From: Actinomycetes bacterium
Lineage (GTDB): Bacteria > Actinomycetota > Acidimicrobiia > Acidimicrobiales > Acidimicrobiaceae
Assembly (NCBI GenBank): GCA_021785255.1
Contig: JAJYGA010000164.1
Span: 1 to 39,702 of the forward strand
Length of the DNA stretch: 39,702 nt
Reading direction: 5' to 3'
The number at the start of each line of letters is the position of its first letter. Position 1 is the first letter of the stretch. Made by a program: the position numbers and the translations under genes. The notes below the pieces were generated by a model. It was not told where the DNA came from. It searched no databases and saw only the letters and a program-made list of their open reading frames with translations. Positions 24,387 to 29,504 of the stretch are shown here, in pieces.

Positions 24387-25568
24387 TCACGAAAGATAAC
24401 TCAAAAGAGGAACCTCGATCTCATCGGCAGTTAGAGCACCGTGCCTACAAACGAGCTCAAATGGTCCCGTATCACACGGATCATAAAATGCCACCTTTTG
24501 AGTCGCCACCAACGCCACGTCTCCTAGACGAAGTGCCACCTCTGGTTGCATAGCAGGACCAAGAATTTGAGCGTCAAGAAGCTCCTCTCTAGTGAGCACC
24601 TTACACTGGTCTCCGTAGTACTTCTCACATAGATTCGAAACCTCATCTGTCATCCCGACTTTGAGATGGAGCCACCTAAATCTTCCCTCTCCGCTTTGAT
24701 ACAATACTTTCGACAAAATGTCGGAATGAAGATGCACGGGAGGATCTAGAACCTCGACTTGGCCATGGTCAGCTGTCACCAAAAGGGTTGAGTTCCGACT
24801 CAACGCAGCCTGTAGATGGCCAACTAGATAGTCGATAAATTCAAGCTCCAAGTCATAGTGTTCTCCCAGTCCATACTCGTGGGCGGTAGTGTCCAATCCC
24901 TCATAGTAAAGATAGATAAAGCGCTCTTTTTCTCTTTGCAGATCCCTGACAGTAGAAACAATCCCAGACAAGGTTCGCCAGTACTTGGTTCGCACATTAC
25001 GAAGATGAGCCTTCGTAAATCCGGTGTTGTGGTAGATCGCCTTAGTGACGACCATGGGCCGAAGTCCGAAAAACGGCTCATGAGGTTGAAGAACTTTTGG
25101 CTCCGGAATCTTGACTGAACAGTCGCGATCAGTAGCCCACTTCAGTGTGTTCAATATAGCGGCCGAGCCTATCCTCATTCGATAACCCACAAGACCATGC
25201 CTTGACGGTGCAAGCCCAGTAGTAATAGAGGTAAGCGCAGACGCGGTCGTAGTCGGAGCAACCGAGTGAATCATCTCGTGAGTCATCGCAGAAAGATTAG
25301 GGAGTCGGTCAAGTCTCTGTTGAAGTTGGCGAAATCCTAGTCCATCTAGGACCAATAACACCACAGAATCGACCCCCTCGACGCCTTTAGGAAGTATTGA
25401 AGTTGGAGATCTACCCTCCAAAGCCTCTCGCCTTATAACCTCCTCAACTTTCATGAAAGAGTTCGAGGACGGGAGGTTCAGGCCCTTTCCTAAACTAAGA
25501 TAGATCGATGGAACAAGGTTTGTAATACATCTGCCTTGGTAGTCAGGTACTATAAAGTCATCTGACAA
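24387..25568 (-). CDS. Alkaline-phosphatase-superfamily phosphodiesterase / nucleotide pyrophosphatase-like
   Basis: About 393 residues. LLVLDGLGFRQL provides the first metal Asp. SVAPTTTASALTSITTGLAPSRHGLVGYRM contains the likely nucleophilic Thr. YYEGLDTTAHEYG provides Asp and His. TADHGQVEV gives the Asp-His pair, and HLHSDIL follows. These are the type I phosphodiesterase/nucleotide pyrophosphatase ligands for two metals. There is no signal peptide, so action is probably cytoplasmic. I start at TTG 25568, with GAAGGA six bases upstream. The frame is open to 25661, but the extra 31 residues are Trp/Cys/Ser-rich and unlike the family. Substrate unknown. Confidence 0.82.
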   Translation of the reverse strand: MSDDFIVPDYQGRCITNLVPSIYLSLGKGLNLPSSNSFMKVEEVIRREALEGRSPTSILPKGVEGVDSVVLLVLDGLGFRQLQQRLDRLPNLSAMTHEMIHSVAPTTTASALTSITTGLAPSRHGLVGYRMRIGSAAILNTLKWATDRDCSVKIPEPKVLQPHEPFFGLRPMVVTKAIYHNTGFTKAHLRNVRTKYWRTLSGIVSTVRDLQREKERFIYLYYEGLDTTAHEYGLGEHYDLELEFIDYLVGHLQAALSRNSTLLVTADHGQVEVLDPPVHLHSDILSKVLYQSGEGRFRWLHLKVGMTDEVSNLCEKYYGDQCKVLTREELLDAQILGPAMQPEVALRLGDVALVATQKVAFYDPCDTGPFELVCRHGALTADEIEVPLLSYLS

Positions 25569-25707
25569 CGCAAATCCTTCGTTCAACCAAGTACAACTCC
25601 CGCGTCCCCAACTACACCACTCCCAACTACATAGGCTAATAAGACTCGGCAAGAATAGCAACCCCCACCGTCACTTATTACCGTGCGTAGATAACTACGA
25701 TATAGGT

Positions 25708-26187
25708 GTGAGAGTTTCTACACGCGGCGACTATGCATCAAGAGCACTTCTTTCTCTAGCTCTTCATAGAACAGACCCTGGGCCGACATCAGTTTCAGAT
25801 CTAGCAAAAAGAACGGGATTGCCGCAGCCCTACCTGGAACAGATTCTGCTCGCACTAAAAGGCGCTGGGATTGTACGATCAAAGCGGGGGGTCGGTGGTG
25901 GATATGTACTGGCTCGGGATCCTAAAGACATCACCATTGCCCAAATTGTCAGCGCCGTAGATGGTCCGATTGTGGCTGGAGACTTTGGCGAACCTCACGA
26001 AGACGGAGCTTGTGATCACGAAGGTCAGTGCGTGCTCTTGGCTCTCTGGTCAGAAGTTGGTGCTCACATGCGTGCTCACCTAAGTTCGTACACCCTGGCC
26101 GATATGGTTACCCGCGCCCTTGGTGGAAATACATCGTCAAAGATCGATCCCTTATTAAAAGAACACGACGGAGTGTACTACATATGA
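25708..26187 (+). CDS. Rrf2-family transcriptional regulator
   Basis: 159 residues. The winged helix begins MRVSTRGDYASRALLSLA, with the recognition region DLAKRTGLPQPYLEQILLALKGAGIVRSKRGVGGGYVLA, highly typical of Rrf2 proteins (IscR, NsrR, RsrR). Two cysteines, Cys102 and Cys108 (C-x5-C), occupy the Fe-S loop; the third Cys seen in IscR/NsrR is missing. Asp8 is at the position that supplies a non-Cys cluster ligand in some members. It probably senses redox state or NO through an Fe-S cluster, or has lost that function. The start GTG at 25708 has no Shine-Dalgarno, so a leaderless mRNA is possible. The stop overlaps the next start (ATGA). Confidence 0.88.
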   Translation: MRVSTRGDYASRALLSLALHRTDPGPTSVSDLAKRTGLPQPYLEQILLALKGAGIVRSKRGVGGGYVLARDPKDITIAQIVSAVDGPIVAGDFGEPHEDGACDHEGQCVLLALWSEVGAHMRAHLSSYTLADMVTRALGGNTSSKIDPLLKEHDGVYYI

Positions 26188-28814
26188 CCGTGCCACCTAA
26201 CTACCCCAAACATTGGGAGACAGACATCGTAGCAAACGACGGCGGAACACTTTTTCTCAGGCCCATCACGCCAGAAGACGCCGATGACATTCGCAAGCTT
26301 CATGGAAGGCTGTCCGAAGAGACTGTCTATTTCCGTTTTTTCACTCCCCTTCCATACTTATCTGATGCCATGCTTCATCGCTTTGTCAACGTGGACTACA
26401 CAGACAGAATGGCTTTAGTAGCGGTACTGGGAGAACTCATAGTCGCAGTTGCCCGTTACGATAGACTTCCCGGATCTTCTGAAGCAGAGGTGGCGTTCTT
26501 AGTGGATGATGCCCACCAAGGACGGGGTCTAGCAACAGTTATGCTTGAGTATCTTGTCGCTGTGGCCAAAGAGTCAGGAATTACTCGCTTTGTAGCGGAT
26601 ACTCTGCCTGAGAACACCAAGATGCTAAAGGTGTTTCATGACGCCGGTTTTAGAGATCATCGCCACTTCCAAGACGGGGTTGTGCGGGTTAGCTTTGAGA
26701 TTTCCCCAACTCCCAAATCCATAGAGGCGATGCAGAAAAGAGAACGAACGAGCGTCTCGAGATCTGTCGCGAAACTTTTAGCCCCCAAAACTGTTGCCGT
26801 CGTCGGAGCCTCACGGATACCAGGAAGTGTCGGAAATATTGTATTTCGCAACATACTTGAGTCCAACTTTCAAGGTACCGTCTATCCCGTCAATCCTCAT
26901 GCAAAGGCAGTAAACGGAGTGAGGGCTTATGCCACCCTGCAGGAGGTACCGGAAAATGTGGACATGGCTGTCGTGGTTGTCGCAGCCGAACACATCGAAT
27001 CCGTAATCACAGATGCGGCTGAGAAACACGTAGGCGCCTTGGTTGTGATCTCGGCAGGGTTCTCCGAACTCAATGAGGATGGTGCGCATCTAGAACAACG
27101 TTTGGTGCGACTAGCCCGGAGAAACGGCATGAGAGTAGTCGGCCCGGCATCAATGGGAGTTGCCTCTATGGATGTCGGTACTACTTTAAACGCCACACTT
27201 TCGCCAATAGCCCCCATGCCAGGTAGCGCAGCCTTACACTCTCAATCAGGAGCGCTGTCCCTAGCCATCTTGGAAGAGGCAAGACGTCGAGGACTTGGCA
27301 TATCCTCCTTCGTATCCTCTGGGAACAAAGCCGATATCTCTGGAAATGACCTATTGCATTACTGGGAGGATGATCCATCCACAGGAGTTATCTTGCTTTA
27401 TATCGAGGACTTCGGTAATCCCAGGACCTTTGCCAGAGTAGCCAAAAGGGTAAGTTACAAAAAACCAATTCTGGCGGTCAAATCGAAGCGGAACTCTTCT
27501 ACCACGAGATTTGTACCCTCTCGATCCTCAAAGCCGTGGACTCCACAGCTTCCTAACGACCTTGCAGTCGACGCACTTTTTGAACGAACCGGAGTCATAC
27601 GCGTGGACACGCTCGAACAGCTCTTCGAACATGCGGTGGCACTAGCTAACCAACCCCTTCCACGGGGCAGAAATGTAGCCATCATCTCCAATACCGGAGG
27701 TCCTGCACCACTTTGCGCCGACGCTTGTCTAGCCGTTGGTCTTGAAGTGCCCAAGCTGTCAAACAATCTTTCATCCACCCTCACAAAACGGCTGCCAAAA
27801 GATTGCCATATATCTAATCCAATCGAACTCTCTGCATCAACCCTTCCAAGCGACTTTGGAATGGTGCTGGACAATGTGCTTAGAGATGAACACATCGATG
27901 CAGCTATTGTTCTATACGTCCCAACTGTCGTAGGTACTCCAGACTCGCCATCGACATTGGCCCGTCCAACTATTGAGGGTCGCCTGCGGGGGACTCCGGA
28001 GATCGCTCAGGACTTCGCCGCTGCCGTCGCCTCGGAGATTGCCCTTGCCGCTAGACAAGATTGGACCAACTCTCCAAAACCCGTTCTAGCCAACTTTCTC
28101 GCTCTACCGGGTGTACCAACAGCCTTGAGAGGGGCAAAAAGACCTATCCCTTCTTACGCTTTCCCCGAGGCCGCAGCCATGGCTCTAGGTAGGATGGCGG
28201 ACTACTTTAGTTGGACTCAACGACCGGTTGGTGAACCTTTTAGCATCTATGAGCCGGAGTTTCAAAAGGCCAAAGAGATCGTAATCAATGCCCTAGCCCC
28301 CATAAGAGTCAACGACGAAATCACTTTTTTAGATCTGCCGGAAGATCAAGTGCAGAGACTTCTAGGTAAGTTTCACATCAACGCCATTATGTCGCGAAAC
28401 GTAAAGGCCCTGCACTCAGAGAATCTGAGGATAAGTATCGATGTCTTCCATGATCTGCAGTTTGGTGTATTCGTAGACTTGCATCCCGACAGCGATGTCA
28501 TCGGACTTACCGATCAAAGGTCTCTCCGATACATGCCTCATACATCTCAGGAAGTGAGTGACGTCATGAGGGCAATGCCTGGCTATCAGGCGCTTCTGAC
28601 GCGCAGAGGCTATCTAAAAGAAGACTTTCAAGTTATTGAAGACACGATTAAGTGGCTCTCGATAATGACGGAAAACATCTTTGAGATCTCCCACGTCTCA
28701 CTGGTCATCGAGATAGTACGTGGCGGAGGCTCCATGGTGCTATGTGGACCCATAACCTTAGCGACCTGGTCGCCTGAAGCTTACTTCATCACAAGAGCTC
28801 TGCGCAAACCATAG
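26184..28814 (+). CDS. GNAT acetyltransferase fused to acyl-CoA-synthetase (NDP-forming)-like domains (Pat-type)
   Basis: 876 residues from the ATG at 26184, coupled to the Rrf2 gene by a four-base overlap. Residues ~10-165 are a GNAT domain with the acetyl-CoA loop (HQGRGLATVMLEYL, then VADTLPENTKMLKVFHDAGF). Residues ~190-320 are a CoA-binding Rossmann domain (VVGASRIPGSVGNIVFRNIL, YPVNPHAKAVNGV). Residues ~330-460 are a succinyl-CoA-ligase-like part (SQSGALSLAIL, SSGNKADISGNDLLHYWEDDP). The C-terminal ~200 residues align loosely with the ATP-grasp part but look degenerate. Such proteins are protein lysine acetyltransferases in which the synthetase-like part regulates. Target unknown; here GNAT is N-terminal, unlike Salmonella Pat. 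Confidence 0.88.
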   Translation: MTVPPNYPKHWETDIVANDGGTLFLRPITPEDADDIRKLHGRLSEETVYFRFFTPLPYLSDAMLHRFVNVDYTDRMALVAVLGELIVAVARYDRLPGSSEAEVAFLVDDAHQGRGLATVMLEYLVAVAKESGITRFVADTLPENTKMLKVFHDAGFRDHRHFQDGVVRVSFEISPTPKSIEAMQKRERTSVSRSVAKLLAPKTVAVVGASRIPGSVGNIVFRNILESNFQGTVYPVNPHAKAVNGVRAYATLQEVPENVDMAVVVVAAEHIESVITDAAEKHVGALVVISAGFSELNEDGAHLEQRLVRLARRNGMRVVGPASMGVASMDVGTTLNATLSPIAPMPGSAALHSQSGALSLAILEEARRRGLGISSFVSSGNKADISGNDLLHYWEDDPSTGVILLYIEDFGNPRTFARVAKRVSYKKPILAVKSKRNSSTTRFVPSRSSKPWTPQLPNDLAVDALFERTGVIRVDTLEQLFEHAVALANQPLPRGRNVAIISNTGGPAPLCADACLAVGLEVPKLSNNLSSTLTKRLPKDCHISNPIELSASTLPSDFGMVLDNVLRDEHIDAAIVLYVPTVVGTPDSPSTLARPTIEGRLRGTPEIAQDFAAAVASEIALAARQDWTNSPKPVLANFLALPGVPTALRGAKRPIPSYAFPEAAAMALGRMADYFSWTQRPVGEPFSIYEPEFQKAKEIVINALAPIRVNDEITFLDLPEDQVQRLLGKFHINAIMSRNVKALHSENLRISIDVFHDLQFGVFVDLHPDSDVIGLTDQRSLRYMPHTSQEVSDVMRAMPGYQALLTRRGYLKEDFQVIEDTIKWLSIMTENIFEISHVSLVIEIVRGGGSMVLCGPITLATWSPEAYFITRALRKP

Positions 28815-29084: not shown

Positions 29085-29504
29085 TCATCTTCGAATCCTC
29101 GAAAACGAAACTATCCGACAGGGCACCTCGACATTCTCGTCAATCTCATACACTGCGCAGATCCTGTGATAGCCGTCTGCTATGACAAGTGCCACTCCCG
29201 TCATTGCATCTCCACGAACAAGCAGAATCGGTGACAGTTCCACGTTGTCTCTGACTTTTGCCAGATCGGAAGCAACGTGTCTATTCGATCCAGGTAACTC
29301 CGGCAAGGCTGAGGCGCGAAGCACGTCTTTAGCATGCTTGTATTCAGTTGGCGCCAGCTTCATCTTTGAGACCAATGTGTCTACTTCTTTTTCTTCAAAT
29401 AACAGCGCCAAGTAGTCCTTTGCCGCCGGATAATCATGATCGTCAGGATCATGTTTCCATCTCGGATCATGTTTCTTTTCTGTTTTATCCTTTTTCTTCG
29501 CCAT
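29085..29504 (-). CDS. ParB/Srx-domain small protein
   Basis: 139 residues. A Lys/Asp/His-rich N-terminus (KKKDKTEKKHDPRWKHDPDDHDYPAAKDYL) precedes a helical stretch and a C-terminal ParB-like fold fragment with SPILLVRGDAMTGVALVIADGYHRICAVYEIDENVEVPCRIV. The (A)DGYHRI..A pattern is the conserved phosphate/nucleotide-binding signature of ParB/sulfiredoxin-type domains. It lacks a helix-turn-helix, so it is not a partition ParB. It is a stand-alone gene between the convergent GNAT fusion gene and the aquaporin gene on the same strand. Role unknown. The ribosome-binding site is poor. Confidence 0.7.
   Translation of the reverse strand: MAKKKDKTEKKHDPRWKHDPDDHDYPAAKDYLALLFEEKEVDTLVSKMKLAPTEYKHAKDVLRASALPELPGSNRHVASDLAKVRDNVELSPILLVRGDAMTGVALVIADGYHRICAVYEIDENVEVPCRIVSFSRIRR

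Follow-up and report, generated by a model that had tools for sequence, protein, structure and literature searches.

A candidate redox site of two cysteines, a histidine and an aspartate in an Acidimicrobiales Rrf2 regulator, paired in one lineage with a type II acetyltransferase fusion

What an Rrf2-family transcriptional regulator senses when its sensor loop lacks one of the usual three Cys, and whether such a regulator controls protein acetylation, are questions raised by a locus in the draft genome (2.57 Mb, 173 contigs; GCA_021785255.1) of a member of the Acidimicrobiaceae. In the window, meaning the whole analysed stretch of 39,702 nucleotides (contig JAJYGA010000164.1), the regulator (159 residues, GTG start, 25708 to 26187, plus strand) is directly followed by a gene of 876 codons (26184 to 28814, plus strand) that, by domain and structure matches, codes for a fusion of a GNAT domain with an NDP-forming acyl-CoA-synthetase-like part, as in the type II protein acetyltransferases (Pat). 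The answer that we favour, held tentatively and at somewhat less than even confidence, is that an Rrf2 protein found across the order carries a [2Fe-2S] redox site of two Cys, His and Asp and, in one lineage, is the first gene product of an operon that also encodes a type II Pat.

The regulator belongs to the Rrf2 superfamily, with scores well over the cut-offs of PF02082 (132.5 bits versus 30) and TIGR00738 (115.4 versus 73.3), and it stays below those of the equivalog models for IscR (TIGR02010, 95.8 bits versus 207.55) and CymR (NF047409, 79.7 bits versus 195). Comparison of its fold with solved structures gives Z scores of 16.3 for IscR, 16.1 for CymR, 15.0 for RsrR and 13.9 for NsrR. The sequence-only reading of this DNA had singled out Asp8, Cys102 and Cys108, and all three are exactly where it placed them, the two Cys being the only ones of the chain. 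The Asp8 codon (25729 to 25731, plus strand) corresponds to the position that provides the ligand Asp8 in NsrR of S. coelicolor (ScNsrR), as described in an excerpt of PMC5411485. The sensor loop, H97-X4-C102-X-H104-X3-C108, spans positions 25996 to 26031 of the same strand, with codons for His97 at 25996 to 25998, Cys102 at 26011 to 26013, His104 at 26017 to 26019, and Cys108 at 26029 to 26031. The third Cys that had been reported as missing is indeed absent and can now be specified as the outer (first) one, near whose place stands an invariant His97.

The orthologues indicate whether this loop is damaged or fixed. Asp8 and the H-X4-C-X-H-X3-C loop are present in 137/137 Rrf2 rows, corresponding to 105/105 distinct orthologues, in a collection gathered by similarity in which some genomes recur and hits below 80 bits were dropped; the candidate ligand set is invariant and, as had been proposed, unlike that of IscR and NsrR, and 99 of the 105 distinct sequences carry just the two loop Cys. 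Moreover, the exact DNA pattern for the loop is detected in 41 of 198 genomes of the class, all of them inside the order Acidimicrobiales, that is, in 41 of the 51 in-order genomes (a number counted by eye from the table) and in zero out-of-order ones. A set of 24 genomes, composed of the ten in-order genomes that failed the pattern and of low scorers of the order, yields 18 orthologues, 65-81% identical to the window protein, all of which keep D8, H97, C102, H104 and C108, with Glu105 changed to Asp in two of them and Gln107 altered in two; in the remaining genomes, the best match is a different Rrf2 paralogue in five, and G313 has no Rrf2 match at all. Asp8 and Arg12 are invariant in 42/42 alignment rows, and, besides Gly and Pro, the invariant residues of the loop are mostly of metal-binding kinds (H, C, H, C), several adjoining positions being variable. 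The sensor loop is thus a conserved motif rather than the remains of a degraded one, and it is confined to the Acidimicrobiales. As an Rrf2 match at E<=1e-12 occurs in 268 of 298 genomes of the order, a count that includes some genomes holding other Rrf2 paralogues only, the regulator itself is a core gene of the order, present in most genomes and usually without an acetyltransferase.

The origin of the loop can be traced outside the order. A close Rrf2 orthologue exists in 15 of 30 searched genomes from other orders of the class (L157-L171, E 2e-60 to 2e-52), with a nearly identical DNA-reading region and a loop that is six residues shorter, reads HDHxEGHC in most cases, and retains Cys108 as the single invariant Cys, while two deeper relatives (L172, L173) hold three Cys in the arrangement C-X8-C-X5-C. 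In the tree, the clade with His and two Cys (16 rows, support 98/94) is sister to the clade with one Cys (15 rows, 97/90), and the three-Cys pair joins next with weak support (89/36). The sister clades, the near-identity of the DNA-reading region and the three-Cys relatives together argue that evolution remodelled the sensor loop and preserved the part that reads DNA. Judged by their spacing, Cys102 and Cys108 correspond to Cys99 and Cys105 of ScNsrR and the absent outer Cys to its Cys93, and His97 is spaced like the first Cys of E. coli NsrR (C-X4-C-X5-C). According to the excerpt of PMC5411485, Cys99 and Cys105 of ScNsrR are buried, Cys93 is exposed to the solvent, and a salt bridge between Asp8 and Arg12 connects the cluster with the recognition helix.

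For the gene downstream, the listed open reading frame starts at 26028, a mechanical extension, and the likely start is the ATG at 26184; the 4 bp (ATGA) that it shares with the end of the Rrf2 gene, stop codon included, bear out the overlap proposed from the letters alone. The Pfam scan recognises GNAT, CoA_binding_2 and Succ_CoA_lig domains. Specifically, the GNAT domain (residues 23-157, 26250 to 26654, plus strand) exceeds the cut-offs of PF13302 and PF00583, has as closest solved chains 4nxy/4u5y, which we take to be the S. lividans enzyme, and keeps Glu102 (in AEVAF, invariant in the alignment), by analogy presumably the catalytic base, together with the P-loop Q112-G-R-G-L-A117. The synthetase half includes the CoA-binding and ligase domains (residues 197-600, 26772 to 27983, plus strand), with 400.7 bits to TIGR02717 (cut-off 567.15), and the model of the window protein superimposes on the acyl-CoA synthetase alpha chain 2csu (Z 35.4, 2.3 angstroms over 431) and on PatZ (9isq, Z 29.4, 4.1 angstroms over 605). 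Both of its catalytic elements are lost. The phospho-His loop is degenerate (residues 434-461, 27483 to 27566, plus strand), as the SSHTAAL of relatives is absent from the alignment and the AlphaFold predicted local distance difference test score (pLDDT) falls below 50 at residues 437-452; the ATP-grasp domain is reduced to a remnant (residues 735-876, 28386 to 28811, plus strand; PF13549 at 21.2 bits, below the cut-off of 27.6), just before which the segment with the ATP-binding Lys has shrunk from 66 residues to 3. A working ADP-forming acyl-CoA synthetase, as the fusion had been read in part, was rejected on account of these two losses. The fusion instead has the features of a type II GNAT Pat, namely an N-terminal GNAT domain with an acidic residue and a Q/R-x-x-G-x-G/A loop, the motif given for GNAT proteins in an excerpt of PMC8556138, and a C-terminal NDP-forming synthetase domain without the catalytic His, and it is predicted to act as a type II Pat lysine acetyltransferase.

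The same remodelling marks the fusions of the family. The SHT motif and the ATP-grasp segment, the latter down to 3 residues, are absent in 29/29 same-family fusions, whereas the unlinked fusions of the order, which lie outside Rrf2 operons, hold a 64-66-residue ATP-grasp segment with the Lys in 12/12 cases and the SHT phospho-His loop in 6/12; one of the unlinked genes (L104) has an Rrf2 gene roughly 1.3 kb away on the opposite strand. Among the 17 named linked rows, several of which come from the same genomes as unnamed ones, 14 show this deletion, L136 lacks SHT and retains 19 residues that align poorly, and L067 and L069 stop short of the ATP-grasp region and thus give no information on it. 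The His loop flagged by the pattern search in L021 is a different stretch (FSHTGV) and was not counted. In addition, six unlinked type II Pats (L188, L189, L193-L196) lack the phospho-His loop yet hold the ATP-grasp Lys; the His was therefore lost repeatedly or ahead of the ATP-grasp segment. In an excerpt of PMC8556138, the synthetase half of type II GNAT proteins is described as inactive because it lacks the His, and as thought to sense acetyl-CoA; the loss of the ATP-grasp segment is one step beyond this scheme. Beside the fusion, at 29085-29504, lies a gene for a 139-residue protein with no Pfam match at E<=1e-5, which also adjoins the fusion in Ferrithrix (L066, 63% identity).

The pairing of the two genes prevails in the family and is found in a minority of the loci of the order. 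The fusion is present, whole or in part, in 33 of 36 same-family genomes, including the host of the window, and, of the 29 loci examined in the family, 26 have the Rrf2 gene upstream of the fusion and three end at or near a contig border; the gap ranges from -6 to +122 nt in 25 of the 26 (-4 in nine) and is 769 nt in one, and the arrangement persists across genera g1-g8. Among 110 loci of the order, some of which end early, the fusion lies directly downstream of the Rrf2 gene in 25 and no Pat does so in 85. A Pat tree built on 46 of 58 rows, after leaving out 12 near-copies and short rows, places the linked fusions on one side of a branch with support 76/96, with L080 unresolved, and this topology argues for a single lineage of pairing, not for many independent events. 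On the other side of the regulator lies, divergently oriented, a type I phosphodiesterase/nucleotide pyrophosphatase (PDE) gene (24387 to 25661, minus strand; PF01663, 86.7 bits), whose start is uncertain, as the listed TTG lies upstream of a likely promoter, by eye, and translation probably begins at a codon deeper in the gene. A PDE gene is divergent within 700 nt in 61 of the 110 order loci, occurs anywhere in the locus in 73, and is present in 15/15 of the best out-of-order loci (L157-L171).

Upstream of the regulator, a -10-like hexamer TACGAT (25696 to 25701, plus strand), 12 nt 5' of the GTG, is the probable leaderless promoter of the regulator and the operon. Of 95 non-redundant upstream regions, 94 have a TANNNT that starts 11-15 nt 5' of the Rrf2 start codon, where chance alone would give 2.7%, and this position suggests that the rrf2 transcript is probably leaderless. 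In the column profile of these regions, only the -10 element and the adjoining bases are conserved.

In the mechanism that would connect these elements, the outer Cys of the Rrf2 loop was lost and His97 became fixed; Cys102, Cys108 and His97 (or, alternatively, His104) of one subunit and Asp8 of the other would bind a [2Fe-2S] cluster. Its oxidation state, or whether it is there at all, would affect DNA binding by way of the Asp8-Arg12 connection with the recognition helix. One event in an Acidimicrobiaceae-like lineage would then have placed the type II Pat behind the regulator, on the same, probably leaderless, transcript, and the synthetase half, deprived of the phospho-His and of ATP binding, would be left with acyl-CoA binding or a supporting role in the fold. 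The redox or iron-sulphur (Fe-S) status would thereby set the amount of Pat, and acyl-CoA its activity towards AMP-forming CoA ligases such as acetyl-CoA synthetase (Acs), with a sirtuin reversing the modification. Acs and a sirtuin are the usual partners of Pat, and the host genome codes for an AMP-forming Acs with a PKTRSGK site and for one Sir2 sirtuin. We infer, and do not observe, the cluster in the loop, its ligands, the signal, the transcriptional control and the acetylation target. That the loop has two Cys is no bar to a cluster, since the redox sensor RsrR holds its [2Fe-2S] cluster with two Cys plus a single His and a single Glu (excerpt of PMC11138216), and IscR of Rhodobacter sphaeroides holds its cluster with a single Cys (excerpt of PMC4618611).

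Several points weigh against this mechanism. The cluster is itself predicted from sequence, and in the AlphaFold monomer residues 91-110 reach a pLDDT of only about 55-69, a loop confidence too low for ligand geometry. In L172 and L173, the first Cys lies nine residues before the second, and the spacing of His97 fits E. coli NsrR only; therefore, His97 is likened to the outer Cys by spacing, not by column. A classical cluster is not easily squared with the one-Cys sister clade, and invariance inside one order could reflect a structural or DNA-facing role. Furthermore, no palindromic operator stood out in the 95 upstream regions when exact palindromes with arms of 5-6 were sought, the commonest kind, GC-rich and spacerless, being present in at most five regions against 2-3 in shuffles, which is unremarkable; any autoregulation is therefore conjectural. 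Lastly, the PDE gene, not Pat, is the widest partner of the regulator and its most conserved neighbour across the class, and at least one genome of the family (G018, L053) has the Rrf2 gene with no Pat beside it.

Part of these points feed the strongest rival, a zinc or thiol site, in which the loop would be a mononuclear Zn or Fe site or a Cys102-Cys108 disulfide switch sensing metal or oxidants. This is a possible explanation, although on balance a doubtful one. Two Cys with two or three His or Asp residues are a common Zn-binding set, the single Cys and HxH motif of the sister clade are difficult to reconcile with a classical cluster, and CymR of S. aureus senses oxidation through one Cys (excerpt of PMC9338935); conversely, the invariance of Asp8 and Arg12 fits the cluster-to-helix link of ScNsrR, and L172 and L173 keep three Cys. 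A loop that is structural or DNA-facing in a cofactor-free regulator, acting for example through a protein partner like CymR of B. subtilis, is improbable: CymR is among the best-scoring structures and the ScNsrR loop touches the recognition-helix region (excerpt of PMC5411485), but the residues fixed in the loop are mostly those that bind metals, in the midst of positions that vary. The nitric oxide (NO)-sensitive switch contemplated earlier, namely a [4Fe-4S] sensor of the NsrR type with His in place of one Cys, is likewise improbable. In its favour are Asp8, the fourth ligand in ScNsrR (excerpt of PMC5411485), and the related fold; it was rejected as the leading explanation on three grounds, namely the presence of just two Cys, the low score to the NCBIfam NsrR model (PRK11014, 31.5 bits versus a cut-off of 182) and a separate NsrR-like paralogue in the same genome. 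The latter (L002, G000:C134, 1378-1947, minus strand) is a second Rrf2 with a C-X6-C-X5-C-X2-H loop, divergent from a gene for a polyferredoxin-type membrane protein that is NosR/NapH-like by eye; further weak Rrf2-like matches of the host genome (L003-L005) are below the cut-off.

A different objection concerns Pat, which could be a lodger that came to lie downstream by insertion and is just co-transcribed, while the conserved task of the regulator would be to govern its own expression together with that of the divergent PDE gene. This is compatible with either cofactor reading, and we consider it unlikely, though to be taken seriously. It draws on the neighbour counts given above and on the possibly single origin of the linked state; it fits less well with the persistence of the arrangement, with overlap or close spacing, across the genera of the family and with the distinctive remodelling shared by the linked Pats. 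The claim of a switch controlling acetylation survives as a coupling to a Pat-like fusion in one lineage and fails as a general role: since the regulator is core to the order and 85 of the 110 loci have no Pat directly downstream, its basic role cannot be acetylation control.

Other genes near the regulator in order loci code for Bpa, DnaE, a sigma-70-type factor, RluD and LspA. The gene for Bpa (bacterial proteasome activator, PF10759) is divergent near the Rrf2 gene in many genomes of the order, e.g., L131, 5441-6043. The RarA neighbour of the window also occurs in Ferrithrix L066, and the Bacillus gene order is reportedly rarA-cymR; a positional orthologue of CymR was dropped as a candidate because across the order the regulator has DnaE, Bpa, PDE, the sigma factor, RluD and LspA as its neighbours.

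A further proposal can be advanced more tentatively still: a His-X4-Cys-X5-Cys plus Asp8 cluster site, undescribed in the literature searched, on a core Rrf2 protein, within a series that runs from three Cys through two Cys and His to one Cys and HxH and along which the sensor loop would be exchanged with hardly any change in the helix that reads DNA, and in one lineage wired to a Pat whose synthetase half would be a pure acyl-CoA receptor, joining redox status and acyl-CoA supply to acetylation. In open-licence PubMed Central papers, no transcriptional link between a redox or Fe-S regulator and a lysine acetyltransferase was found described, no report was found on Rrf2 in Acidimicrobiales or on acetylation in Ferrithrix or Acidithrix, and no two-Cys/His Fe-S Rrf2 of Actinobacteria was found by title and abstract start. 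If true, the locus would offer a natural experiment on one transcription factor swapping its sensor chemistry with its DNA reading kept, as well as a direct transcriptional link from a redox or Fe-S regulator to a lysine acetyltransferase, and both questions are approachable in the cultivated relatives Ferrithrix and Acidithrix.

Among known systems, the window regulator shares with RsrR of Streptomyces venezuelae the Rrf2 fold (root-mean-square deviation 4.0 over 137), the expected ligand types, i.e., two Cys, one His and the carboxylate of residue 8, all invariant here, and a divergent partner gene. In RsrR, the second subunit supplies His33 and the carboxylate ligand, reportedly Glu8, whereas residues 30-40 of the window protein (SDLAKRTGLPQ) contain no His, its candidate His97 lies in the Cys loop, and position 8 is Asp; likewise, the 11-3-11 operator of RsrR has no counterpart here that stands out as such an inverted repeat. 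NsrR of S. coelicolor ([4Fe-4S], NO) shares Asp8, Arg12 and the two inner Cys, but its outer Cys is absent and the genome has another protein of NsrR type. IscR of E. coli and Thermincola potens gives the highest Z and the best phmmer matches; the equivalents of its Cys92 and His107 are, however, absent (Leu111 being at the place of His107 by loop spacing), and no isc or suf genes are recognised beside the window Rrf2. As regards the fusion, the SlPatA-like type II GNAT of Streptomyces lividans shares the N-terminal GNAT domain and a synthetase half without the catalytic His, whereas the window fusion has in addition lost the ATP-grasp segment and is encoded in an Rrf2 operon; PatZ and SePat, of type I, share the GNAT domain and the dead NDP-forming synthetase in the reverse domain order.

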